From NCBI RefSeq assembly GCF_000184345.1, contig NC_017583.1:62001-126000 (forward strand): a DNA stretch of 64,000 nt, written 5' to 3'. The notes under the pieces are model-generated. The model did not search any database, was not told the origin of the DNA, and saw only the letters and a list, made by a program, of their open reading frames with translations. This DNA is from Spirochaeta thermophila DSM 6578. Lineage in GTDB: Bacteria; Spirochaetota; Spirochaetia; Winmispirales; Winmispiraceae. This document shows, one piece after another, positions 50,272 to 64,000 of this stretch (its first letter is position 1; each line of letters begins with the position of its first letter). The position numbers were made by a program, and so were the translations under genes.

Positions 50272-51276
50272 TCACTTCTCTTCGTGGACGATCTCTTCCG
50301 GATGCCGTTCGAAGTACGCGGATAGCAGGCGTTCCATCTCCGTGAGGGAATCGGCCTTGAGGAGCTCGGAGAGGAGCGTGTGCCCGAAGAAGAGGTTCCT
50401 CGTGTAGTACCTGAAGAATCTCCTCGCCCTGGAGAGGTGGAACTCGGGGGGTTGGTGGCGGGAGAGAAGCTCCAGGAAGGAACGGGCGGTCTCCTCGAGA
50501 TTCACGGTGAACGGTCCTCCCCCTCCTCGTTCCCGCGACCTGAGGTAGGCGAAGAACCACGGGGCCTCCACGGCCTTCCGTCCGATCATGATGCCTGCGA
50601 GCCTCGGTAGCTCCTCCCTCTTCTTCCGGTACACATCGAGGGAGGTGATGTTCCCGTTTCCCACCACGGGTATCGGGATCTCCTCGAGGAGAGGAGGGAT
50701 GAGGTCCCAGCGCGCGGGTCGGTCGTGTTTCTCCTTGAGTCCCTTGGGGTGTACGGTGATGAAGGAAAGGCCCTGCTTCGCGAGCCTCTGAAGGAAGAGG
50801 ATGAATTCCTCGAGAGGGAGGGACTCCGGGATGCGGATCTTCACGGAGAGGGAGAGGTGAGGGGGGAGGAGCCTTCGGACTTCCCCCACGAGGCGTACGG
50901 CCTCTTCTCCTCTGAGGAGCCATCCCGCTCCGCCTCCCCGCTTGCGTATCTCGGGGGCGGCGCATCCCATGTTGATATCCACCCCCAGGATCGGGTGCTC
51001 CGCGAGGATCCCGGCCGCCTGTACGAGGGAGTCCATGTCGTACCCCACGAGCTGGACGATGGTACGCGACGGGTCCGGAGAGAAGTCGAGATAGAAACGT
51101 TCGTAGGGTCCCTTCGAGAGGAGCCCGGGAGCGCTTATCATCTCCGTGGCGTAGACACTGCAGCCCCCCCATGTATGGATGAGGGTCCTGAATCCGGAAT
51201 GGGTGAGCTCCGCCATGGGGGCGAGGAAGAGGGGGAATTCGCCATTAAGCGGGAACAGGGAAGGATTTGTTTGCAT
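50272..51276 (-). CDS. dus: tRNA-dihydrouridine synthase
   Basis: 334 residues, FMN-dependent TIM barrel. [14 protein letters not shown] near the N terminus, catalytic Cys in [51 protein letters not shown] and [15 protein letters not shown] are the family blocks. Reduces uridines in tRNA; subfamily not assigned. AGGGGG lies upstream of the ATG. Divergent from the receptor gene at 51330, whose -35 overlaps this start codon. Confidence 0.9.
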
Positions 51277-51299
51277 CTTGTCCCCCTTTCTGCTACTAT
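51271..51299 (+). promoter_or_regulatory. Promoter of the PBP-like chemotaxis receptor/adenylate cyclase operon
   Basis: TTGCAT (51271-51276), 17-bp spacer, TACTAT (51294-51299). The message has a leader of about 25 nt with AAGGAGAAGGG before ATG 51330. Confidence 0.5.
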
Positions 51300-51329
51300 A
51301 AGAATTGTGACTTTAGTAAGGAGAAGGGA

Positions 51330-53519
51330 ATGCTGCAAGTAGGGCTGCTCGTTGCCGGTATCGTGGTTGGAGGGGGGATGGCCTTCTTCCTGCTCAAGGG
51401 GAGGATGGGGAAAGGGGTAGGGAACACGATGCGTCTTCTCTCGGTGGTGGAGGATGCCCTGGAGGAGATCTCTCAGGGGAACCTCGAGACATCGATCCGA
51501 CTGTCGAGGGACGGAAATCTCAAGGCCACGCCCGGGCCTCTCAGGCCGATCCAGACCCGCCTCTTCAGGGTGGTCCGGGAGGTCAACAGGATCACCGGAG
51601 AGCCGCTCCACCGGGTCTTCTATGTGGGGAGCGATCTGTTCCTGGAGGGTATTACCTGCGCAGAGGACATCGGCGGCAGACTCGGCGGGAGAGGCAAGGT
51701 GGCCCTCTTCGCCCGTTCTCCCCGCCATGTGGGAAACATGCTCAGGGTCCAGGGGTTCCGGAACATCTCGGGCCTGAGGTTCCCCGATCTCGAGATCCTC
51801 GGTCCGTTCTTCACCGGAGGTACGGTGGAGGATGCCGTGAGGTCGGTTCGGGAGGTGCTTCGCGCTCATCCCGACGTGGCGGCCGTCTATTGCGCAGACG
51901 AGACGTCGCCCGAGGGTGTGTGCAGGGCCGTGAAGGAGTCGGGGAGGAAGGATCTCTATCTGGTGGTACACGAACTCCGGGATGCCCTCATCCCCTATTT
52001 CGAAGACGGGACCCTCGACGTGGCCATGGACCAGGATCTCTTCTTCCAGGGCTACAATACGGCGGTGCACCTCTTCAACTACGTGGTCCATTCCTGGAGG
52101 CCCGCCTCTTCGCACATCCCCACCACGGTGGACCGGGTGACGAAGGAGAACTTCAGAGACTTCTGGGAACCCGGCAAGGGGGTGAGGATCTCAAAGGAAC
52201 GTCTCGCACGGAGGGCCGAGCCCCTGGGGCCGTCGGACAGACCGGTGAAAATCCTGTTCATAGGAGACGAGCGGTACGAGGTCTTCGAGCAGATCAAACA
52301 GGGGGTCTCCCAGGTGGCCGGGGTCCTCTCCGGTTACAACGCAGAGGTGGAGTGGGCGTGTCCTCCCGCCCACCGGGTGAGGGGAGGGAAGATGCTCTCC
52401 GCATACGAACTCATCCCCTACATCAAGGAAAAGATCGCCGAGACCTCTCCCGACGCCCTCGCGGTCACCGTGAAGGACCGCAGGATCTTTCCCTTCCTCA
52501 ACCACCTGGCGCATGAGGGGCTCCCCATCGCCACGTACAACACCGAGCCCCTCACGGTTCGAGGACTGCTCTACGGTATCTCCGAGACCGCACAGGATCT
52601 CTTCGGTCTCAGCACGGTGCTCGCCCAGGGAACGGAGGAGTCGGATCTCGCCATGAGGGAGATCCAGAGCGCCATCACCGAGGTCGCCGAGAGCGTGGAG
52701 TCGCAGCAATCCACGGTGCAGAAGGGTGCCGAGGCGGTCTCGCACCTCATGGGGTCCATCCAGCGTGTGAGGGAGGGCGTGGACAGACAGGTGGAGGCGG
52801 TGGATGCCTCCAGCGCCCTGCGCGGGGACCTGCGGGATGCGGTGCGCACCCTCGGCCACCAGGTGGACAGACTCACCCACGTGCGGGAGAAGATGAGCGA
52901 AGTGGTGGGGAGGATGGAGGAACTGGGCGGGTTCTCGCAGACCATAGGAGAGGTGGTGGCTTCCATAGAGAACGTGGCGGTGCGTACGAACCTGCTCGCC
53001 CTCAATGCAGCCATCGAGGCCGCACATGCGGGGGAAGCGGGGAAGGGCTTCGCCGTGGTGGCGGAAGAGGTGAGAAAACTCGCCCAGCAGTCGGGGGTGG
53101 AGAGTTCAAGGATCGCGCAGATCGTTGCCCAGATACAGGAGCAGGTGGGCCTCACCGCAGCCTCCATGGAGGAACTCTCCGGCGAGATACAGGAGCAGAT
53201 GGGGAGCCTCTCGTCGCTCATGGAGAGCTTTCAGGTCCTCATCGGGAAGTTCCTCGATTCGGTGGAGCGGGTCTCCGAAGTGATAGAGGAGAACAAACGG
53301 CAGGCCGACCTCATGGATCGGGACGCCCAACAGGTGAACACCATGATAGACGAGGTGGTGGCGGTGAGCGAGCAGAACCGGGCCGCCACGGAGGAGGTCT
53401 CGGCCGCCATCCGGGAGCTCTTCGCCCAGATGGGGAGTATCCGGGACATGGCCCGTCAGCTCGCCGGTACGGCGCAAGCTCTGAAGGGTGCCATCGTCCA
53501 GTTCATGTCCTGGAGGTAG
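51330..53519 (+). CDS. Chemotaxis-type receptor with permuted sugar-binding-protein sensor on the cytoplasmic side
   Basis: 729 residues. One N-terminal membrane helix (3-22) followed by positive residues, then a helical linker (30-90). Residues about 94-279 ([12 protein letters not shown] ... [10 protein letters not shown] ... [17 protein letters not shown] ... [22 protein letters not shown] ... DRVTKENF) match the second half of a type-I sugar-binding protein. Residues 306-409 ([21 protein letters not shown] ... [11 protein letters not shown] ... [12 protein letters not shown]) match the first half, so the order is reversed. The MCP signalling domain follows ([34 protein letters not shown]) with no second membrane helix, so sensor and signalling parts lie on the same side. 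Start fixed by AAGGAGAAGGG. Adenylate cyclase gene 13 bp downstream. Confidence 0.85.
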
Positions 53520-53532
53520 GAGTGAGGTTCGC

Positions 53533-55194
53533 GTGAGCATACGGATAAAGGTGGTGCTCGTCATCATCCCCATCCTCGTGCTTTCGCTCTTGATGGCGGG
53601 GCTCTCTTCATACTTCTTCGCTACATCCGGTATCACCAGGATCGCGCGGGAGTTCCTCGGCTTCAAGGCCGAGGAGCTGGAGAAGTACATGCTCACACAG
53701 TGGCAGGTGCTTGTGGAGAGCGGACTCTCCGACAGGCCCGAGATGCGGTCTGCCACGCAGGAGGGGATGGCCTCGTTCGCCGCCACCCTCATAAGGAGCA
53801 CCACTGAGCTCATCCTCGCCGTCGACGGAGAGGGTGCGCTCGCCTTCTCCACTTCTCCGGTGGAGCTGGCTCCGGAAGACTGGGGGAAGATACGGGAGGT
53901 CTTCGAGGCCGGGAGGGCGGAAGGGTTCTTCACCCTCAGGCTGGGGGATACGGAACGCGTGGGAAGGGGATTCTTCTTCGAACCCTTTTCCTGGTATGTG
54001 GTCCTCACCGAGGCGCGGACTACCTTCTACCAGGATGTGGAGAAGATCACCACCCAGACGATCTACATCGTGGCGGGAAGTATCCTGTTCGCCTCGCTCC
54101 TCGTGTTCTTCTTCGTAGGGTATCTCCTGCGCCCCCTGTCCCGTGTGGTCTCCACCATGCAGGGGATCATCGCTTCCACCGATCTCTCCCAGCGGGTGCC
54201 GGTGGAATACCACGACGAGATAGGTGAGCTCTCACACACGTTCAACTTGATGGTGGAGGGACTCGATCGGGCCTATACGAGCATCAAGAACTATGCCATG
54301 GATGCGGTGGTCGCCAGACGCAACGAGATGAAGATTCGAAACATCTTCCAGAAGTACGTACCGCAGGACATCATCGATCAGTTCTTCGAACATCCCGAAT
54401 CCATGCTGGTGGGCGACAACCGGGTGCTCGCGGTGCTCTTTTCCGATATCAGGAGCTTCACCACCATCTCCGAGGGTATGCCCCCCGACGAGCTGGTCGA
54501 GGCCCTCAACCGCTACTTTGCGCTCATGGTGGACATCATCACCGCCCGCAACGGGATCGTGGACAAGTATATAGGCGATGCGATCATGGCCTTCTTCGGT
54601 GCCCCGGTGAAGCGGCCGGACGACGGATACAACGCCGTGCTGGCTGCGATAGAGATGACGGAAAAGGTGAAGGAGTTCAATCAGAGGCAGGTCGAGGAGG
54701 GGAAGCCCGAGTTCCGGATAGGGGTGGGTATCAACTACGGCCTCGTCACCGTGGGCAACATAGGGTGTGAGAAGAAGATGGACTACACGGTGATCGGGGA
54801 TATGGTGAACCTCGCCTCCCGCCTGGAAGGACTCACGAAGTACTATCATCAGGAGATCGTCATCTCGGAGAGTCTTTTCCGGAAGGTGGAGGGGAAGCTC
54901 CCGGTGAGGCTCCTCGACACCGTGGCGGTGAAGGGGAAGCACCGGGGGGTGCGCATCTACACGGTGAAGCGTGAGCTCTCACCACGGCAGGGGGAGATCT
55001 GGAAGCTGCACAACGAGGGGATGGAGCTCTACTATACCCGAAGGTTCGACGAGGCCGCGGTGCTCTTCCAGCGGATCCTCGAGCTCGATCCTCAGGACTA
55101 TCCCGCGCAGATGCTCTCCAAGCGGTGCAGGCTCTATGTCGTGGAACCGCCTCCTCCCGACTGGGACGGGGTGGAGAAGATGCTGGTGAAGTGA
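53533..55194 (+). CDS. Membrane class III adenylate cyclase with HAMP and C-terminal TPR-like region
   Basis: 553 residues. Two membrane helices (about 6-30 and 178-200) bracket a small periplasmic sensor; a HAMP segment follows (RPLSRVVSTMQGIIASTDLSQRV). Cyclase catalytic domain at about 285-480: FSDIRSFTTISEGM and KYIGDAIMAFFG hold the two metal Asp residues and the Lys of the adenine pocket; DYTVIGDMVNLASRLE holds the Asp and the Asn/Arg of the transition state. The Lys/Asp pair favours ATP over GTP. The C-terminal end (HNEGMELYYTRRFDEAAVLFQRIL) is a TPR-like helix pair. GTG start, 13 bp after the receptor stop; likely one operon. Confidence 0.93.
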   Translation: MSIRIKVVLVIIPILVLSLLMAGLSSYFFATSGITRIAREFLGFKAEELEKYMLTQWQVLVESGLSDRPEMRSATQEGMASFAATLIRSTTELILAVDGEGALAFSTSPVELAPEDWGKIREVFEAGRAEGFFTLRLGDTERVGRGFFFEPFSWYVVLTEARTTFYQDVEKITTQTIYIVAGSILFASLLVFFFVGYLLRPLSRVVSTMQGIIASTDLSQRVPVEYHDEIGELSHTFNLMVEGLDRAYTSIKNYAMDAVVARRNEMKIRNIFQKYVPQDIIDQFFEHPESMLVGDNRVLAVLFSDIRSFTTISEGMPPDELVEALNRYFALMVDIITARNGIVDKYIGDAIMAFFGAPVKRPDDGYNAVLAAIEMTEKVKEFNQRQVEEGKPEFRIGVGINYGLVTVGNIGCEKKMDYTVIGDMVNLASRLEGLTKYYHQEIVISESLFRKVEGKLPVRLLDTVAVKGKHRGVRIYTVKRELSPRQGEIWKLHNEGMELYYTRRFDEAAVLFQRILELDPQDYPAQMLSKRCRLYVVEPPPPDWDGVEKMLVK

Positions 55195-55224: not shown

Positions 55225-56319
55225 GTGATGGACATGCGTAAGGCCCTGCCGACGATAGTGGGGATGCTCTGGGGCGTGGCCGTCCTCTCCGCCGTGCCCC
55301 AGGTCAGGCTCGAAGACCCCGTGGTGGAGGATCTGGATTTATCCCCCGAACTCGTGGTGAAGGCCCTCGTCGCTTCGTTGGAGGCGAGAGAGGTGCTGGT
55401 GCAGGATGATGCGGGCTACGTGCTCACCACCAGGATGTGGGGCGGCGGGAGACGGGGCGTGGTCTCGCTCCGGCTCTACGTGGAAAAAGGAGAGACGAGG
55501 AGTCTCGTGGCGGCCGTGGTGGCCTCCTTCCCTCTCAACCTCTCCTTCTACGCCGAGGTGGACAGGGCCGTGGAGGACCTTCTGTCCCGGTGGCTGAGCC
55601 GGTTCCCGGAGGTGGCTGCCCCTGAGGATGCGGTCTTTCCGGTGGAGGTGAGGGGGCCGGACGAGGGAGCGGTGGTGAAGGTAGGGGATGTGGTGCTCGG
55701 CACCATCGAGGAGGGGGTGCTCGTGGGGGATCCGTTCAGGGTGGTGCTGGGAAGCAGGGTGAAGCTCACCGTGGAGAAGGAGGGCTACTTCCCGAGGGAT
55801 GTGGAGGTGGTGATCGAGGAGAGTCCCGTGGTGGTGGAGCTTCCGCCCCTTCCCAGACAACATCGCTTCGAGGTGGGGGTCTTCAGCACGCTTGGCCAAC
55901 TCAAGGGGGCGGGGGTGGAGGGACGATGGTACGCCCTGCCGGATCGGGTCTTCGCAGGGCTCAGGGACTACGTCTACGCCGAGGGGGGCGGCCGGTGGTG
56001 GATGCCTGAGGTGGTGGTTCGCAACCAGAGTGAGTTAGTAGTAGGGGCGTACCTCGTGGGAGGGGTGAGCTCGACCGTGCGGCTGTGGATGGAGAGTGGT
56101 ATCGGAGGGTACCTCTCGTTCGTGGAGGGCGTGCCGTTCGATCTCTACTACCACCTCATCGGGTTGGGGGTGGAGTGGGTGGTGGTGCCCGGGTGGACCC
56201 TGTATGCACGCACCGGGTACGACTATGCCGCGGGTACCGGTCTCCTCCCTCAGGGCTCGATCTCCCTGTATCCAGAGGGAGGACCCGCACTTTCATGTGG
56301 AGTGGGATACCGATGGTAG
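55225..56319 (+). CDS. PEGA-domain protein with C-terminal outer-membrane beta-barrel
   Basis: About 364 residues with a signal peptide (KALPTIVGMLWGVAVLSA). Residues about 20-130 are a TolB-N/CsgG-like alpha-beta region; about 135-210 a PEGA domain (FPVEVRGPDEGAVVKVGDVVLG, KLTVEKEGYFPRDVEVVIEES). The last 155 residues alternate short beta strands (VEVGVFSTLGQLKG, YLSFVEGVPFDLYYHLIG, LYARTGYDYAAG) and end in CGVGYRW, an aromatic C terminus typical of outer-membrane barrels. The start is GTG 55225 or ATG 55228. First of four genes arranged as two barrel-lipoprotein pairs. Confidence 0.72.
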   Translation: MMDMRKALPTIVGMLWGVAVLSAVPQVRLEDPVVEDLDLSPELVVKALVASLEAREVLVQDDAGYVLTTRMWGGGRRGVVSLRLYVEKGETRSLVAAVVASFPLNLSFYAEVDRAVEDLLSRWLSRFPEVAAPEDAVFPVEVRGPDEGAVVKVGDVVLGTIEEGVLVGDPFRVVLGSRVKLTVEKEGYFPRDVEVVIEESPVVVELPPLPRQHRFEVGVFSTLGQLKGAGVEGRWYALPDRVFAGLRDYVYAEGGGRWWMPEVVVRNQSELVVGAYLVGGVSSTVRLWMESGIGGYLSFVEGVPFDLYYHLIGLGVEWVVVPGWTLYARTGYDYAAGTGLLPQGSISLYPEGGPALSCGVGYRW

Positions 56320-57260
56320 GAATTGGACGTTCGTCTATGGTATGGGGACTCCTGGTCTCTTTCCTGCTCGTGACGGGGTGTTCGCTCTTCGAGCTTTCCC
56401 GTTTTCCGTTCTACGACCGGTGGGCCGAGGAGAGCACAGACCTCGGGGAGTATCTGGAAGACTTTGGTGCCACTCCGTTCTATGAACACTACGAGGCGGT
56501 CTTCGCGGTATCGGACGGGCCCTCTTCGAGGTATGTCGTGTTCGGGATACGGGAGAAGAATGGGATGAGGGGGAGACTCTTCGTGATGGACGGAGAGCTT
56601 GGCATAAAACGTGTCCTGGAGACCGAGGACTTCCAGGAGCCCGAGAGGCTCTACGACACGCCTTTCGTGGATGCCTCGAACAAGGTGGTGTTCGGGGATT
56701 ACTGGATCGATCCCGAGGGGAGCGGGGATCCCAAGCTGATCGAGGGAGGGAGGGGGTTCTGGGGGGAAGAGGGGGGAAGCCTCTACAACTACAGGCTGTG
56801 GGGGGACGAGGCCTCTCTCAACATAGAGGTAAGGGATCGCAACTGGGAGACTCTTACCACGTACACCCTGCCGTTCGAGTGGGACGTACGAGACGGATGG
56901 AGGGTGAAGGATCACGTGGTCTTGGAGTGCGGGAAAGAAGGTGCGCGCCGTTTCCTCTTACTGCCGTTCGATTCGTATCAATCATGGTCCACCCCTCTGT
57001 TCGACCACTATCCATGGTTTCCCCTTCCCTTCGAAAACTACGACAGCGTGGTCTCGGTGACCGAGGAGGGTATCCTCGTCTCGAAGTGGGAGGAGGACGT
57101 GCGCATCCACGAGCGGTACAACCTTGAAGGTGAGTTCGTGGACTCTACCGAGATGCCGTGGGACTACGAGGTGTTCTGGGCCTATGCCCCTGCGGGGGAT
57201 GCGCTCTACGTCTTCGATCCCGTGGTCGAGAAGGTCTTCCGGGGGCCGGTGTGGTGGTGA
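56313..57260 (+). CDS. Lipoprotein of unknown function (first of a pair)
   Basis: 315 residues from ATG 56313, which overlaps the previous gene by 7 bp; ATGs at 56295 and 56337 are alternatives. Lipobox LVTGC. The mature part is beta-rich with several Trp/Tyr motifs (FPFYDRWAEEST, YVVFGIREKNGMRG, DYWIDPEGSGD, LYVFDPVVEKVF) and may be a small propeller. It shares length, position and ending style (YVFDP... / LVYDP...) with the lipoprotein at 58426. No named domain. Confidence 0.7.
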   Translation: MVGIGRSSMVWGLLVSFLLVTGCSLFELSRFPFYDRWAEESTDLGEYLEDFGATPFYEHYEAVFAVSDGPSSRYVVFGIREKNGMRGRLFVMDGELGIKRVLETEDFQEPERLYDTPFVDASNKVVFGDYWIDPEGSGDPKLIEGGRGFWGEEGGSLYNYRLWGDEASLNIEVRDRNWETLTTYTLPFEWDVRDGWRVKDHVVLECGKEGARRFLLLPFDSYQSWSTPLFDHYPWFPLPFENYDSVVSVTEEGILVSKWEEDVRIHERYNLEGEFVDSTEMPWDYEVFWAYAPAGDALYVFDPVVEKVFRGPVWW

Positions 57261-58432
57261 GAAGCAGGCTTCGTCGGCTGGGTGCCGTGGCTCTCTTTTT
57301 CGTCCTGGGGAGCGGCATGTGGGCGCTGACGGTGCAGGTGGCCGTTTACATGGATCCTGAAGGGCACGAAGCCGCCATCTGGTATGAAGAGACACTCGCG
57401 CTTCTCACCTCCTACTCGTGGGTGGTGGTTGAGGAGGTCGGTTCTGTTCCTCCCGACTGGCGTGACGATGCGAAGCGACGGGGCGCCGCGGCGGCGCTCC
57501 TCATCACCGCGGAGGGTGGAGCCCTCCGGTACCGCGCCTACCGGTTCGACACAGAGGAGGAAGTGTTCGACTTTCGAGTGGATACGGCCGTTTCTTCGCC
57601 TCTGGTGGTGAAGGCCCGACTGTCTGCCCTCAAGGAAGCCCTGGAGAGGTTCGATGCCCGGTTCAGGGGTATGCGTGATCTGGCCACAAAGGGTGAGGGG
57701 AGACTCGTCGTGGAGGCGGTGCCGGGGACGCTCCTCGAGGGGATCTTCACCGATCCGGTGGAGGTGGGGGAGGAGGGGGTGATACGGTTCAGGTTGCCTG
57801 CTCCTTCCACCTACGTGGTGAGGGGGACGCGGGAGGGCTACACCACCGAGGAGATGGTGGCCGTGCTGCGGGTGGGGGAGGAGACGAAGGTACGGCTCCC
57901 GCAGGAGCGGGTCGTGGGGTTTGTCACCGGCGTGAACCTCCAGTACTTCCAGTTCCCCGGGTTCTCGGTCATGTACGAGGTGGTCCCCGACTGGTTCTCG
58001 GCGGGAGGGGGGGTGGACTGGTACGGCGCGGGGCTCTACCTCCCCGAGCGTCCGTGGGAGAGTGACCGGCAGGCGGGCTTCGTCTCCTTTGCCCTTATCG
58101 AGCCCTGGGTCGGCCTGCGGACCACCTTCATTCGATGGAGGAGCGGGATCTCCCTTTTCGGTACCATGCGCGTGTTCCTCCGGGTTGTGTACCCCGAGGG
58201 GCAGTGGGCGATCGATCCGGTGGCTCCGGGCGGTGTGGTCCTCGGAAGCGGGATCAGGTTGCCGCTTTCCCGAAGGTGGGCGATGGTGGTGGAAGGGGGT
58301 CTCACCGCCTACATGACGAAGAATCGACTGTTGTTCTACGAGATGTTGGGGGAAGAGGCGGAACGGGCGGAGGACATCGCCAGGAGTATCTTCCGGCCGG
58401 GGATGAAGGCAGGAGTGGAGGTGACATGGTGA
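57257..58432 (+). CDS. Second PEGA-like protein with C-terminal beta-barrel
   Basis: 391 residues from the GTG that overlaps the previous stop (GTGA). Signal peptide (RLGAVALFFVLGSGMWA). Residues about 20-130 form an alpha-beta region (LTVQVAVYMDPEGHEAAIWYEETL..., AALLITAEGGALRYRAY); about 140-210 a PEGA-like domain (GRLVVEAVPGTLLEGIF, YVVRGTREGYTTEEMVAVL). Then a barrel-like series (VTGVNLQYFQFPGFSVMYEV, GGGVDWYGAGLYLPER) ending GVEVTW. Same architecture as the protein at 55225, though weakly similar, so an old duplication is likely. Confidence 0.7.
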   Translation: MRSRLRRLGAVALFFVLGSGMWALTVQVAVYMDPEGHEAAIWYEETLALLTSYSWVVVEEVGSVPPDWRDDAKRRGAAAALLITAEGGALRYRAYRFDTEEEVFDFRVDTAVSSPLVVKARLSALKEALERFDARFRGMRDLATKGEGRLVVEAVPGTLLEGIFTDPVEVGEEGVIRFRLPAPSTYVVRGTREGYTTEEMVAVLRVGEETKVRLPQERVVGFVTGVNLQYFQFPGFSVMYEVVPDWFSAGGGVDWYGAGLYLPERPWESDRQAGFVSFALIEPWVGLRTTFIRWRSGISLFGTMRVFLRVVYPEGQWAIDPVAPGGVVLGSGIRLPLSRRWAMVVEGGLTAYMTKNRLLFYEMLGEEAERAEDIARSIFRPGMKAGVEVTW

Positions 58433-59460
58433 CAATGAGGTATAGGTTGTGGGTGGGCCTTTTCTCTCTGTCGGTGCTCACGGGATGTGTGCTTCCGCCG
58501 TACGACGAGAATCTCCTCCTCACCCTCTTCACCCTCGATGGAAGGCTGGAGAAGGTAGGGGAGACGGGGGTCGTGGGGGTCCCTTGGGATTCCTCCTACG
58601 AGAACCTCGCGTACTTTCCGGAACGGGATGCGATCGAGAGGGGGGTGGTCCTGATGAAGGGGCGCGACTATGCGCAGGTGAAGTGGATCTCTGGGGACAA
58701 AACTCTCATGGATCAGAGTGTGCATCCGGAAGTGACCCGGCTGGTGATGGGTTCCACCAGCGAGGAGCAGGCGGAGGCAGCCCTCCTCTACTACGATGGA
58801 GGAGGATGGTGGATCATGCCGGGAGAGAGGAACGGGGAGGCAGTCTCCTGGGGGACTCCCGGTTCCCTCTCTGATCTCTTCTCAGCCACAGGTTACACAG
58901 AGTACGGGGCGTTCCTCTCCTTCCAGGGGTCCCCTTCGGAACCGCTGTATGTGGCTCTCCTCTTCGGGGATGGGGCTGGTACCTACTACGAGTATGTGGC
59001 TGCCGGGAGTGCGTGGGGGCTTTATTCTTACGATGTGAACCTGGACTTGAGAGGGTTCGGTTCGTCGGATATATCCCTTTCAGGGGTGTCCGGACCAGGA
59101 GTCTACCTCTTCGATGTGTTTCGATATGAGAGCCTCTTCCGGGGGCCGGAAGATTCCTCTCTCCATGTGTGGTATGAGGAAGAAGGTGCTCTCCGTGAGG
59201 ATGATATCGGTGTGGAAGGTGTGCCGCTGGAGGTGACGCCTTCGGGGTACCTCCTCACCTATGAGGAATCGACCGGTGAGTTCCTCGTCTACGATCCCGC
59301 GTTCTCGCTCGAGGATCGCTTCTCGGCCGAACGTCTCACACCTGCGGGCTGGTACGAATGGGAGGGGAAAGAGGCGTTCTTCTTCTCCCTTCCCCACATC
59401 CTCAAGACGAAAGAGGGGAGTGCGGCCTTCTTCGAGGTATACGCCTATCCTCTTCGCTGA
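58426..59460 (+). CDS. Lipoprotein of unknown function (second of a pair)
   Basis: 344 residues from ATG 58426, directly after GGAGGTGAC and overlapping the previous stop; ATG 58435 is possible. Lipobox LTGC. Beta-rich mature region with aromatic repeats (YTEYGAFLSFQGSPSEPLYVALLFGDGAGTYYEY region, EFLVYDPAFSLEDRF). No recognised domain. Last gene of the four-gene set; convergent with the coiled-coil protein gene, 7 bp away. Confidence 0.7.
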   Translation: MVTMRYRLWVGLFSLSVLTGCVLPPYDENLLLTLFTLDGRLEKVGETGVVGVPWDSSYENLAYFPERDAIERGVVLMKGRDYAQVKWISGDKTLMDQSVHPEVTRLVMGSTSEEQAEAALLYYDGGGWWIMPGERNGEAVSWGTPGSLSDLFSATGYTEYGAFLSFQGSPSEPLYVALLFGDGAGTYYEYVAAGSAWGLYSYDVNLDLRGFGSSDISLSGVSGPGVYLFDVFRYESLFRGPEDSSLHVWYEEEGALREDDIGVEGVPLEVTPSGYLLTYEESTGEFLVYDPAFSLEDRFSAERLTPAGWYEWEGKEAFFFSLPHILKTKEGSAAFFEVYAYPLR

Positions 59461-59467
59461 TCCCTCA

Positions 59468-61804
59468 TCACTCCAAAATGAGTGTGAGCGCCTCGATGAT
59501 CTCTTCGAGGAGTGAGCCTTCCTCCGTTTCCCGGGCCTGCTCCTCCAGGAAACGCACCCTCGCCTCACGCGAGGGGAGCACGCTGAGTGCCTCCACCAGA
59601 TCGATCACCTCGAGAAGCGCCGCCTCCCTTCCCGCCTTCTCGAAGGCCCGGTCGTACTCCTTGATCCGGGCGAGGAGTCCCGGAAACGTGGCTTCCACCT
59701 CCGAAGACCCCAGGAAGGTGTCGAGATATGACTTTGCCTCCACCCTTCCCCGTTCGCCGTACCGGCTCAGGAGCTGGTCCTCGGTCCGGGCATAGGTTTC
59801 ATAGCCTTGACTCAGACTGCTGAGTCGAGCCTCGGCCTTTTCGAGAGTCTCGATTCTGGCCTTGAGGGATTCGAGTTCTTCGTCCGTGGTCGCAGGAGGA
59901 CGTGCTTCGAGCTCTTCCTGGGCCGCTGTGAGTTGTCGGGTCAGTTCCTGGATCCTCATGGTGAGAGCGTCGTTCTCCTGGGTGAGCCGCTCTATCTCCC
60001 TTCGGATTCGTGCTTCCTCCTCCGGCGGAAGGGTGCGCGTCTCCCGAGCCATGCGGTCGCGTTCTTCCTTGAGGCGGGCGTTTTCGGATCTGAGTGCTTC
60101 GAGCTGTTCCTCAAGGGACGAGATCTGCTCCGTGAACCGGGCGGCCTCTCTCTCGTGGGCAGTGTTCTCCTGTTCCACCTGCCTGTTGTACGCCCGCATG
60201 CTGCGGGTGAGACCCTCGAAGGCCTGCCTCCCCACAGGTGTCTGGGAGAGACGCGAGAGGATACGCGCATAGAATTCCATGGCCGAGGGATAGTCTCCCT
60301 CGGCCTCCCGGCTTCGGGCCTGGGCGAGGAGGGTGGATGCGGCATCCTCTCCTTCTCTCTCCACGCGGGAGAGGGCCGTGCGACCCCCTATGTCGAGGAG
60401 CGAGGATACGAGGGCCTCCCTCCGAGAGGCGGGAAGCGGGAGATAGGCGAGGGCTTCCCTGTAGGCTGCGAGTGCCTCCTGATGGGATCCCCGCCGGTAT
60501 GCGTCCTCCGCACGGGAGAGGGCGGTGGTGAGGGCCTCCCTCCGGCGGGTTTCTTCCTCTCTCACCATCTGGAGAAGATAGTCGTGACTCTCCTTGACGG
60601 CCGGAAGTGTGCTGAGTGCGGCGGTGTAGAGCTCTTCGGCCCTTGCCGTATCCCCGGAAGAGAGGGCCGTACGGGCTTGGTCGACGAGATTCTCGATCCT
60701 CGAGAGGAGACGGCTCTGGGCGAGGAGGGTTGCGGTATCGAGGCGGGTTTGCTGCTCCTGTTCGATGAGCCTGGAGAGGGTTTCCGTGATGAAGATGTCG
60801 ATCTGCCTTCTGCCCGAGAGGGGGGAGAGGGCGGCTACCCGGGGCTGATTCAGGAGGTCCTGGAGTGTGGTGAGGAACCGGCGGGCGCGTGTGTATTCCT
60901 CGTCCTGGATGGCCGATCGTATGTCCCGGTAGAGGCCCAGGATCTGGTTCTCCACGGCCCGCGCCTCCTCCTCCATGCGGGAGAGACGTCCGAGTTCGGC
61001 CCTGGCCTCCTCGAGTGCGGTCTGCGCCTCCCGCGTCTGGGCCTGGAGGGCTTCGGTCCTGGCCTCGTACTGCCTCCGCAATTCGGCCTCGTGCTGCTGG
61101 AACTCGGTCTGGAGGGCCTCACGCTCCTGCGTGAGGCGGGTGAGGGTACCCTCGTACTCCTGCTGGAGGCGGGTGATGGTCTCGAGGAGACGCTGCCGCT
61201 CCGCTTCCGCCTCCTCCCTGAAGCGAGCGAGTTCCTGGTCGAATTCCTGCTGCTTCTGGGCTTCGAACTCGGCGAGCCTGGTCTCTATCTGTTCCTGAGG
61301 TACACCGGCCTCCTGAAGCCGCTCCCGCTCTCGTTCCAGTTCGAGGGAGAGTTGCTCCCGGAGCTGGCTCTCTTTCTCCCTGATGCGTTCCTCCATCTCG
61401 CTCTGGAGCTGCTCCTGCTGGGCCTGCAGTTCCTGAAGCCGTTTCTGGATCGAAGCTATCTCCTGTTCCTTTGCCCTGAGCTTCTCCTGGGCTTCCCGCT
61501 GGATCTCCTGGATGAGCCTGGCCTCCACGGCGTTGATGGTTCCTCTGCCCGAGGCGATCTTCTCCTGCTCCTGTGTGGTGAGGTATCGGAAGCCGATGAA
61601 GGCGCCCGCGATGGCGAGGAGTGCCACACAATTGATGAGGAGCGGAAGGAGCACTCCTCTCTTTCTCGCAGTGATACGGAAGGTGGTCTCGTCGACCCGG
61701 AGACGCTCCTTTTCGACGATCTCCTCTATCTCTTCGAGGATTTCTTGCTCTTCCTCTTTATTGAGAGTTGAGCGTTTTGTCTCCGAAGGACCGGTTTCCT
61801 CCAT
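59468..61804 (-). CDS. Single-pass membrane protein with very long coiled coil
   Basis: About 778 residues. A short acidic N-terminal tail (residues 1-48), one membrane helix (VLLPLLINCVALLAIAGAFI, about 50-70), then a nearly unbroken Glu/Gln/Arg/Leu-rich coiled coil (about 75-330 and 500-660), with a helical-repeat middle part (about 335-500, ALSSGDTARAEELYTAALSTLP and similar TPR-like pairs). A conserved-looking C-terminal domain of 100 residues ends the protein. Start ATG 61804, with GGAAGGTGG 10 nt upstream; an upstream in-frame start at 61861 is less likely. Function unknown; a periplasmic spacer or scaffold is possible. Confidence 0.78.
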   Translation of the reverse strand: MEETGPSETKRSTLNKEEEQEILEEIEEIVEKERLRVDETTFRITARKRGVLLPLLINCVALLAIAGAFIGFRYLTTQEQEKIASGRGTINAVEARLIQEIQREAQEKLRAKEQEIASIQKRLQELQAQQEQLQSEMEERIREKESQLREQLSLELERERERLQEAGVPQEQIETRLAEFEAQKQQEFDQELARFREEAEAERQRLLETITRLQQEYEGTLTRLTQEREALQTEFQQHEAELRRQYEARTEALQAQTREAQTALEEARAELGRLSRMEEEARAVENQILGLYRDIRSAIQDEEYTRARRFLTTLQDLLNQPRVAALSPLSGRRQIDIFITETLSRLIEQEQQTRLDTATLLAQSRLLSRIENLVDQARTALSSGDTARAEELYTAALSTLPAVKESHDYLLQMVREEETRRREALTTALSRAEDAYRRGSHQEALAAYREALAYLPLPASRREALVSSLLDIGGRTALSRVEREGEDAASTLLAQARSREAEGDYPSAMEFYARILSRLSQTPVGRQAFEGLTRSMRAYNRQVEQENTAHEREAARFTEQISSLEEQLEALRSENARLKEERDRMARETRTLPPEEEARIRREIERLTQENDALTMRIQELTRQLTAAQEELEARPPATTDEELESLKARIETLEKAEARLSSLSQGYETYARTEDQLLSRYGERGRVEAKSYLDTFLGSSEVEATFPGLLARIKEYDRAFEKAGREAALLEVIDLVEALSVLPSREARVRFLEEQARETEEGSLLEEIIEALTLILE

Positions 61805-61861
61805 GATGATGAAGCCACCTTCCGCCCTATAACGTTTCGCCCGTTCGAGAAGCCCGCCCAC

Positions 61862-61983: not shown

Positions 61984-63585
61984 CTAGAAGTCTTTGAAGT
62001 CGTCGAGGGGGAGGGTTTCCTCGGGGCGTATGATCTCGACGTCCTTGTGGTCGTGGGGTTCCCTCGGTGGGGGTGTGGTCCGGGGCGGTGTCTTGGCGGG
62101 GGGGTGGTCCTTCTCCGCGTGGTGCCCGCCGTCCGCGTGGGTGGCGGCGGCGCGGGCGCCGTTCACGATGCGGTTGAGGACGACCACGACCTCACGGAGT
62201 TGTTCCACCTGGGAGAGGAGCTCCTCCCCTGCACTGGCGGTCTCCTCGGAGGAGGCGGCCGTCCCCTGTACCACGGTGTTGACCTGGGAGATGGCCTTGG
62301 TGACCTGGGAGACACCCCTGGACTGTTCCTTGAAGGCGGTGGTGATCTCGTCGAGGAGGACGTTGACCTTGCCGGCGAGGGTGCTCACCTTGAGGGCGCT
62401 CTCCTTGACGGTGGAGAGTTTCTCCTGGCCTGAGTCGATGCTGTCGACCACGGTCTCGATGAGCTCGGTGGTCTCCTTTGCGGCCTCGGCGCTCTTCTGG
62501 GCGAGGGACTTGACCTGCTCGGCGACGACGGCGAAACCCCTGCCGGCCTCACCGGCCCTGGCGGCCTCCACGGCGGCGTTGAGGGCGAGGATGCTCGTCT
62601 GGAAGGCGATGTCGTCGATGACCTTGTTGATCTTGACGATCTTCCTGGCGTTCTCGCTTATGAGGGTCATGGCGTTCTGGAGTTCCTCGGTCTGTTGGGT
62701 GGAGAGGCCGGCGCTCTCGTTGGTCTCTTTCATGAGGAGCTCGGCCTCGGTGACGGTCTTGGTGTTGGACTCGATGATGGACTGGAGTTCCTCCATGTTG
62801 CTGGTGATCTCCTCGACCGAGCTTGCGAGCTCGCTCGCGCCGCTGGAGAGTTCCTGGCTGGAGGAGGAGACCTGGGTGGCGGCCGATTCGAGCTGGTTGG
62901 AGGAGGCGAGGAGGTTGCTGCTCACGCTGGTGATGGGAAGGGAGATGCTCCGTGCCATGAGGATGGTGAGACCGAGGGCGATGGCCACGATGACGGTGAT
63001 GGAGATGAGGATGAGGTTGAAGAGGGCCCCGGTCTCGGCCTCCACGTCGTCGAGGTAGATCCCGCTCCCTATGATCCAGTTCCACGGCTTGAACAGCTTC
63101 ACGTACGAAATCTTGGGTACGGGCTTGTCGAAACCCGGTTTGGGCCACATGTAGTCCACGAACCCGGCGCCTGCCTCCTTACACACCTTCACCATCTCCA
63201 CGAAGAGCTTCTTGCCGTTGGGGTCCTCGTAGTCGGAGAGATCTGTGCCATCAAGCTCGGGTTTATAGGGGTGCATCACCATGTAAGGACGCATGTCGTT
63301 TATCCAGAAGTATTCTTCCTCCTCATATCTGAATGTCTTTATCTCTTCCTTTGCGAGGGTCTGGGCTTCTTCGAGGGAGAGGGAGCCTTCCTCCACCTTC
63401 TGCGCGTAGAACTCGAAGACGCTGTAGGCCACTTCGACCACGTGTCGGGTTTTGAGGTATTTCTCCGCGTAGAGGTCCTTCCTCACCTCCGGATAGACGT
63501 AGAGCAGCACAAAGAGCGAGTAGAGCACGATGATGATGAGGGCGATGAGGATGATCTTGTAGGACAGCCTCAGGTTCTTGAGCAT
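61984..63585 (-). CDS. Methyl-accepting chemotaxis protein with sCache_2 sensor
   Basis: 533 residues. Membrane helices at about 11-30 and 188-210 bracket a single-Cache domain of the sCache_2 type ([72 protein letters not shown]), a family that often binds small carboxylates or similar ligands. The signalling domain has the conserved tip ([41 protein letters not shown]). A Pro/His-rich linker leads to an acidic tail ending DDFKDF. RBS GGAGGAAA. Only 15 bp separate it from the next receptor gene upstream, so they form one transcript. Confidence 0.94.
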
Positions 63586-63600
63586 GGACGGTTTCCTCCC

Positions 63601-64000
63601 TCAGAAGTCCTTGAAGTCTTCGAGGGGGAGGGTCTCCTCGGGGCGTATGATCTCGACGTCCTTGTGGTTGTGGGGTTCCCTTGGTGGGGGTGTGGTCCGG
63701 GGCGGTGTCTTGGCGGGGGGACGGTCCTTTTCCGTGTGGTGTTCGCCGTCCGCGTGGGCGGCGGCGCGGGCGCCGTTCACGATGCGGTTGAGGACGACCA
63801 CGACCTCGCGGAGCTGTTCCACCTGGGAGAGGAGTTCCTCACCGGCGCTGGCCGTCTCCTCGGAGGAGGCGGCCGTCCCCTGTACCACGGTGTTGACCTG
63901 GGAGATGGCCTTGGTGACCTGGGAGACACCCCTGGACTGTTCCTTGAAGGCGGTGGTGATCTCGTCGAGGAGGACGTTGACCTTGCCGGCGAGGGTGCTC
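63601..64000 (-). CDS. Second methyl-accepting chemotaxis protein, 5' part outside the window
   Basis: The last 133 codons of a receptor gene; the frame is open to the window edge. Its sequence is almost the same at the DNA level as the 3' part of the neighbouring receptor gene (61984 onward), including the Pro/His-rich linker and the acidic tail ending EDFKDF; one Thr codon in the A/H-rich stretch is missing. The sensor domain is not visible. Confidence 0.9.
   Translation of the reverse strand, partial: STLAGKVNVLLDEITTAFKEQSRGVSQVTKAISQVNTVVQGTAASSEETASAGEELLSQVEQLREVVVVLNRIVNGARAAAHADGEHHTEKDRPPAKTPPRTTPPPREPHNHKDVEIIRPEETLPLEDFKDF

Follow-up and report, generated by a model that had tools for sequence, protein, structure and literature searches.

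An apparently undescribed gene cluster of Spirochaetia links barrel-lipoprotein pairs to a predicted adenylate cyclase

Four plus-strand genes, in the order A1, B1, A2 and B2, occupy positions 55225-59460 of the window analysed here, a stretch of 64,000 nucleotides (bases 62001-126000) from the 2.56 Mb single-contig genome of Spirochaeta thermophila DSM 6578. The first-pass annotation described them as a unit of two pairs, each consisting of a barrel protein and a lipoprotein. The pairs are real, but the unit was drawn too small, as it missed the cyclase gene CYC upstream and the convergent gene TPR. A module of the form CYC-A1-B1-A2-B2 with TPR convergent, linked across the class Spirochaetia, is well supported, and the quartet is apparently the outer half of this widely conserved and undescribed spirochaete cluster. 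The features of the locus are as follows, in window coordinates.

53533..55194, + strand: CYC, predicted membrane adenylate cyclase with a GTG start (Pfam, alignment)
55225..56319, + strand: A1, eight-strand barrel protein with a signal peptide and TolB-N/LpoB-like and PEGA-like domains (model, profiles)
55291..55602, + strand: A1 residues 23-126, alpha/beta domain of the TolB-N/CsgG/PelC/LpoB kind, predicted to be periplasmic
55633..55839, + strand: A1 residues 137-205, PEGA-like beta sandwich (profile-profile comparison, model strands)
55855..56316, + strand: A1 residues 211-364, predicted eight-strand outer-membrane barrel with a terminal Trp (model)
56313..56319, + strand: 7-nt overlap of A1 and B1, ATGGTAG (sequence)
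56313..57260, + strand: B1, lipoprotein (Cys23) with a beta-propeller model and the C-terminus RGPVWW (model, alignment)
57257..58432, + strand: A2, paralogue of A1 with its regions in identical order (hhalign)
58426..59460, + strand: B2, second lipoprotein (Cys21) (sequence, alignment)
59468..61861, - strand: TPR, predicted convergent inner-membrane protein with a coiled coil and tetratricopeptide repeat (TPR)-like repeats (sequence)
59492..59884, - strand: C-terminal domain of TPR, residues about 660-790, occurring mostly alongside A1/A2

The start of A1 is taken as the GTG at 55225, with TTG 55219 and ATG 55228 as other candidates. Consecutive genes of the quartet overlap throughout, by 7 nt at A1/B1, 4 nt at B1/A2 and 7 nt at A2/B2 (ATGGTGA). 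The 7 nt comprise the last Trp codon and the stop codon of the barrel gene, so that the start codon of the lipoprotein gene sits inside them. We counted this junction in 64 distinct complete A1 genes (near-duplicates and A1 genes lacking a stop within the locus being set aside), a set that differs from the 64 strong A1 matches described below; 56 of them have a downstream B open reading frame (ORF). The overlap is 7 nt in 34/56, 4 nt in 11/56 and another length in 5/56, with none found in 6/56. An overlap of 1-13 nt is thus present at 50 of the 56 junctions, and the proposed conservation of the pairing in related genomes is borne out. The pattern exceeds chance and suggests coupled synthesis of each barrel protein and its lipoprotein. 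The claim of a fixed stoichiometry in the first-pass annotation was an over-reading, because overlaps suggest translational coupling only and stoichiometry does not follow from them. A promoter and terminator scan found 2 promoter-like sites (1.4 expected) and 6 terminator-like sites (5.8 expected), which is not above chance.

An AlphaFold2 model of A1, built on a 30-sequence alignment, has a mean predicted local distance difference test score (pLDDT) of 85.6 and a predicted template modelling score (pTM) of 0.61. It places a TolB-N-type domain at residues 23-126, a small beta sandwich at 137-205 and eight barrel strands at 215-363. According to VIA-align, used for all structural comparisons given here, the barrel (residues 211-364) resembles the N-terminal barrel of OprF (Z 17.3, root-mean-square deviation (rmsd) 2.2, 130 aligned) and the transmembrane domain of OmpA (Z 16.3), in agreement with the barrel of the first-pass annotation. 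Residues 23-126 match 2iqi, TolB, PelC and CsgG with Z of 10-11, and the A1 family profile reaches LpoB at the sequence level (E 2.5e-4), which upholds the TolB-N-like region. The outer-membrane location of A1 is predicted from its signal peptide and C-terminal Trp, the latter being found in 38 of the 64 distinct complete A1 genes. A "split TolB", with the TolB-N domain in A and the propeller in B, was considered and is suggestive; we keep it as no more than a comparison, since LpoB, CsgG and PelC have the fold as well and TolB_N is weak or absent in 60/60 relatives.

Neither A1 nor A2 of the window matched any Pfam family at E≤1, PEGA (PF08308) and TolB_N included. Among relatives, PEGA was matched by 2/13 A1 proteins (best E 5.6e-4) and OMP_b-brl by 1/10 A2 proteins (E 5e-4). 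Compared with the PEGA domains of the same genome, the A1 family profile gave profile-profile probabilities of 94.5-96%, whereas the A2 profile gave 41-72% only. These profiles support the PEGA assignment, originally made for both genes, in the case of A1; for A2 the support is weak. The shared architecture of A1 and A2 was correctly recognized: hhalign gives a probability of 99.5% over the full length and 96.9% for the barrel parts, and by this homology we read A2 as a paralogue of A1, barrel included. A 70-residue PEGA domain is among the domains identified in PMC2447325, and the T. pallidum PEGA-domain protein TPANIC_0923 is among the known or predicted surface-exposed outer-membrane proteins in PMC10600179.

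B1 and B2 each carry a lipobox-type cysteine, at residue 23 and residue 21, respectively, which is invariant in its own alignment. The model of B1, based on 27 sequences, is a beta-propeller (pLDDT 82.8). Its closest match is an NHL propeller (Z 14.9, 244 aligned), with an rmsd of 4.7 at which blade number and nearest family are not readable from the match. B1 is accordingly modelled as a lipoprotein with a beta-propeller fold; the earlier description as a beta-rich lipoprotein was right for B1 and missed the propeller. The B1 genes of L036 and L086 are apparently shortened or split in draft assemblies; the L036 sequence was included in the first B1 alignment, and the alignment behind the model contained neither. 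The model-based architecture of A1 and B1 is well supported. A profile comparison of B1 with B2 gave 26.6%, with the match confined to the signal-peptide end. No family of Pfam, NCBIfam or PADLOC exceeded its cut-off for A1, B1, A2 or B2.

A barrel accompanied by a propeller lipoprotein resembles BamA/BamB, and the N-terminal domain of A1 has the fold of CsgG and PelC. The A/B pairs could in principle be a small export or assembly helper of the BamA/BamB or CsgG type at the outer membrane. We consider this very unlikely, since the A1 barrel is eight-stranded and OmpA-like with neither POTRA domains nor an obvious channel, no constant cargo gene was noticed, and the linkage to the cyclase would be left unexplained.

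CYC consists of an N-terminal region flanked by two hydrophobic stretches, a HAMP domain, a class III cyclase domain and a C-terminal TPR-like repeat. Pfam finds Guanylate_cyc (6.4e-24) and HAMP (5.8e-10), both of which are present in 8/8 aligned relatives. In the same 8-sequence alignment D305, K345, D349, T419, N426 and R430 are invariant, and these we take to be the catalytic residues. Since CYC retains the residues of class III adenylate cyclases, it is predicted to synthesize cyclic AMP (cAMP). Its catalytic domain also matches PADLOC models of PycC (best 4.3e-29). A role in Pycsar defence was rejected, as CYC is a membrane HAMP cyclase with no effector gene; A1, B1, A2 and B2 match none of the PADLOC defence models, and TPR matches only coiled-coil-type ones. 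The TPR protein has a short N-terminus, a single hydrophobic stretch (about residues 71-93) and then a long coiled coil with TPR-like repeats. Because the lone hydrophobic stretch is preceded by a basic segment, the bulk of the protein would be periplasmic. A PDB search with the profile of its C-terminal domain gave nothing under E 0.3.

The linkage of these genes was surveyed in 297 genomes of the class, with a strong A1 match defined as >101 bits and a neighbour radius of 8 kb. There are 64 strong A1 matches in 56/297 genomes. Near these 64, A2 was found in at least 51, CYC in at least 42 and TPR in at least 38, and at least one of the three lies within 8 kb for at least 61/64; some of the missing neighbours fall at contig ends. 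These counts leave aside CYC matches <671 bits, A1 matches <101 bits, several TPR matches that were weak or second parts, and A2 matches that were <49 bits or came from G007, G032, G067, G189 (one part match) and G095 (one match).

A second survey started from the cyclase and took the 80 best CYC loci of species-representative genomes, 79 of which were classed; in L133 the cyclase is in two pieces and the locus was left unclassed. At least 8 kb lie downstream of CYC in 34 of the 79, and A1 is immediately downstream of CYC in 22 of these 34, with TPR convergent in 21 of the 22. The linkage survives rearrangement. A1-B1-A2-B2 faces TPR-CYC in L106 and L112, CYC faces TPR, followed by A1-A2, in L142 and L145, all genes are co-directional as CYC-A1-B1-TPR in L135, and the order is A1-B1-A2-CYC in L155. 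A2 is absent from L035 and L083, where two B1-type lipoproteins are present, and B2 is not detectable in several loci.

Several further observations concern the distribution of these genes. Genome G013 has two A1-B1-A2-B2 clusters (L037, L038). Five loci (L131, L133, L134, L137 and L165) contain divergent TPR-CYC pairs with no A/B nearby and represent a second, separate CYC/TPR lineage. CYC and A1 of the spirochaete kind also occur on contigs of metagenome-assembled genomes labelled Borreliella garinii (L164) and Nitriliruptoria (L125). As L164 agrees in length and in gene coordinates with contig L040 of a class genome, these titles look like misbinning or mislabelling. In a phylum sample of 315 genomes the A1 profile matched 47 at E≤1e-10. 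For 32 of the 47, outside the class, the match covered the N-terminal part only (within columns 1-197 of 409). The N-terminal domain is thus widespread and full A1 is seen only in the class Spirochaetia in this sample; on its own the domain (55291-55602 in the window) turns up again in numerous other ORFs of the phylum.

Directly upstream of CYC, and stopping 13 nt before it, lies a chemoreceptor gene (51267-53519, + strand; Peripla_BP_4 and MCPsignal by Pfam). Its periplasmic-binding-protein-like region, together with the propeller model of B1, would fit a system for sensing or taking up a surface polymer or nutrient, in which the ligand would be bound by propeller lipoproteins held in place by the barrels, with the cyclase reporting it. 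B1 also has the most divergent alignment (mean column identity of 19% versus 30% for A1), as ligand-binding surface proteins do. However, the chemoreceptor is an inconstant neighbour among relatives, and no carbohydrate enzyme or transporter was noticed as a constant neighbour among the listed ORFs, for which no dedicated search was made. Substrate pores are rarely formed by eight-strand barrels, which counts against uptake. We regard this explanation as improbable.

The C-terminal domain of TPR provides a further connection to the A/B genes. With duplicates included, it is present in 47/47 TPR proteins with A1/A2 in the locus; of the 19 TPR proteins with no A in the locus, 15 have no match, two a strong and two a weak one. 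In the deduplicated set of 56 TPR proteins, 38 have the domain and A, 14 have neither, 4 have the domain only and none has A only. This set, also used for the tree, left out two too-short fragments, one protein with no N-terminal match and the duplicates of one contig. At the genome level (110 genomes with TPR, domain cut at ≥50 bits), the domain is found in 54/60 genomes with A1/A2 versus 4/50 without (Fisher p 1.5e-19, relatedness ignored). Three genomes with A1/A2 matches of 61-75 bits (G007, G032 and G067) were excluded as weak from the A-positive side of this comparison.

The reading that we favour, with a probability of about 0.35, is that the barrel and propeller units report the state of the outer membrane through a TPR bridge to the cyclase. 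The B lipoprotein might dock onto the A barrel at the outer membrane, and A and B together would read the state of that membrane or of peptidoglycan. The coiled-coil TPR protein would span the periplasm from the inner membrane, with its C-terminal domain as the contact to the A/B units. The signal would then reach the periplasmic part of CYC and alter its cAMP output. The fuller form, a relay of the spirochaetes' own with LpoB/TolB-N-like barrel sensors and propeller lipoproteins, docking by the TPR C-terminal domain and control of the cyclase, is put forward only tentatively.

A number of points weigh against such signalling. Both the A/B-TPR interaction and the change in cAMP are what we infer, and Pfam finds no known sensor domain in the N-terminus of CYC. 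Counting G007, G032 and G067 as A-positive changes the genome-level comparison to 54/63 versus 4/47. Four genomes with TPR have the domain but no strong A1/A2, and six show the converse; in one of the four, G275, a weaker A1 match lies immediately behind CYC. On the tree of the 56 TPR proteins, A changes 4 times and the domain 3 times. The co-loss of A/B and the domain amounts to about two independent events there, and an independent-pairs sign test for co-loss was not significant, with too few independent events for it to reach significance. Neither A1/A2 nor the domain is present in 46/110 genomes with TPR, and many loci have CYC and TPR together without A/B. It follows that the inner pair can function alone and that A/B look like a dispensable outer-membrane addition to a CYC-TPR core.

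The same association of the TPR domain with A/B would also be expected of a structural tether, in which the barrel-anchored A proteins, their propeller lipoproteins and the coiled coil of TPR join outer membrane, peptidoglycan and inner membrane, doing work like that of OmpA or Tol-Pal, and the cyclase is merely co-transcribed or co-regulated. The OmpA-like barrel with periplasmic domains in the A1 model and the sequence match of its N-domain family to LpoB point the same way, as does TolB_N (PF04052), with 0 matches in the source genome or its two nearest relatives. Against this, five OmpA-family (PF00691) domains elsewhere in the genome indicate that wall binding is already covered, and CYC is linked to A1 in at least 42 of the 64 matches, a linkage kept through rearrangements. 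Such a tether, though doubtful in our view, is nearly as good an explanation as the cAMP relay.

If the relay to the cyclase holds, spirochaetes would have an envelope-sensing route of their own, with a docking domain at TPR residues 660-790. Even without it, four families that lack a Pfam or NCBIfam name now have an architecture and a conserved gene neighbourhood. Among the publications searched on the organism, PEGA, spirochaete barrels, propeller lipoproteins, cyclases and Tol-Pal, judged from the openings of their abstracts, none describes the cluster, in keeping with the first annotation, and none pointed to a spirochaete adenylate cyclase with a partner in the outer membrane. Elsewhere in the window, a 95-aa ORF (63601-63888, - strand) is a near-repeat of the C-terminus of another chemoreceptor (61984-63585, - strand), which suggests a tandem chemoreceptor duplication cut off at the window end.

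Like OmpA and OprF, A1 combines an eight-strand barrel with a periplasmic part, but in A1 that part lies at the N-terminus and consists of an LpoB/TolB-N-type and a PEGA-type domain, with no OmpA-family domain, and it is accompanied by a propeller lipoprotein and a cyclase. The fold of residues 23-126 is common to the N-domain superfamily of TolB, LpoB, CsgG and PelC; in A1 it is fused to a predicted outer-membrane barrel and, in contrast to TolB, the propeller is absent from A and found instead in the neighbouring lipoprotein. BamA/BamB likewise comprise a barrel with periplasmic domains and a propeller lipoprotein, whereas the A1 model has no POTRA domain and 8 rather than 16 strands, and there are two paralogous pairs. 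Pycsar cyclases share the PycC-type catalytic domain, and CYC differs in being membrane-bound with a HAMP domain. The proposed relay would resemble other outer-to-inner-membrane relays in its working and presumably not by homology. The closest such likeness in operation is the RcsF-OmpA relay, where a barrel and a lipoprotein report to an inner-membrane signalling protein; the output of the spirochaete module would be cAMP.

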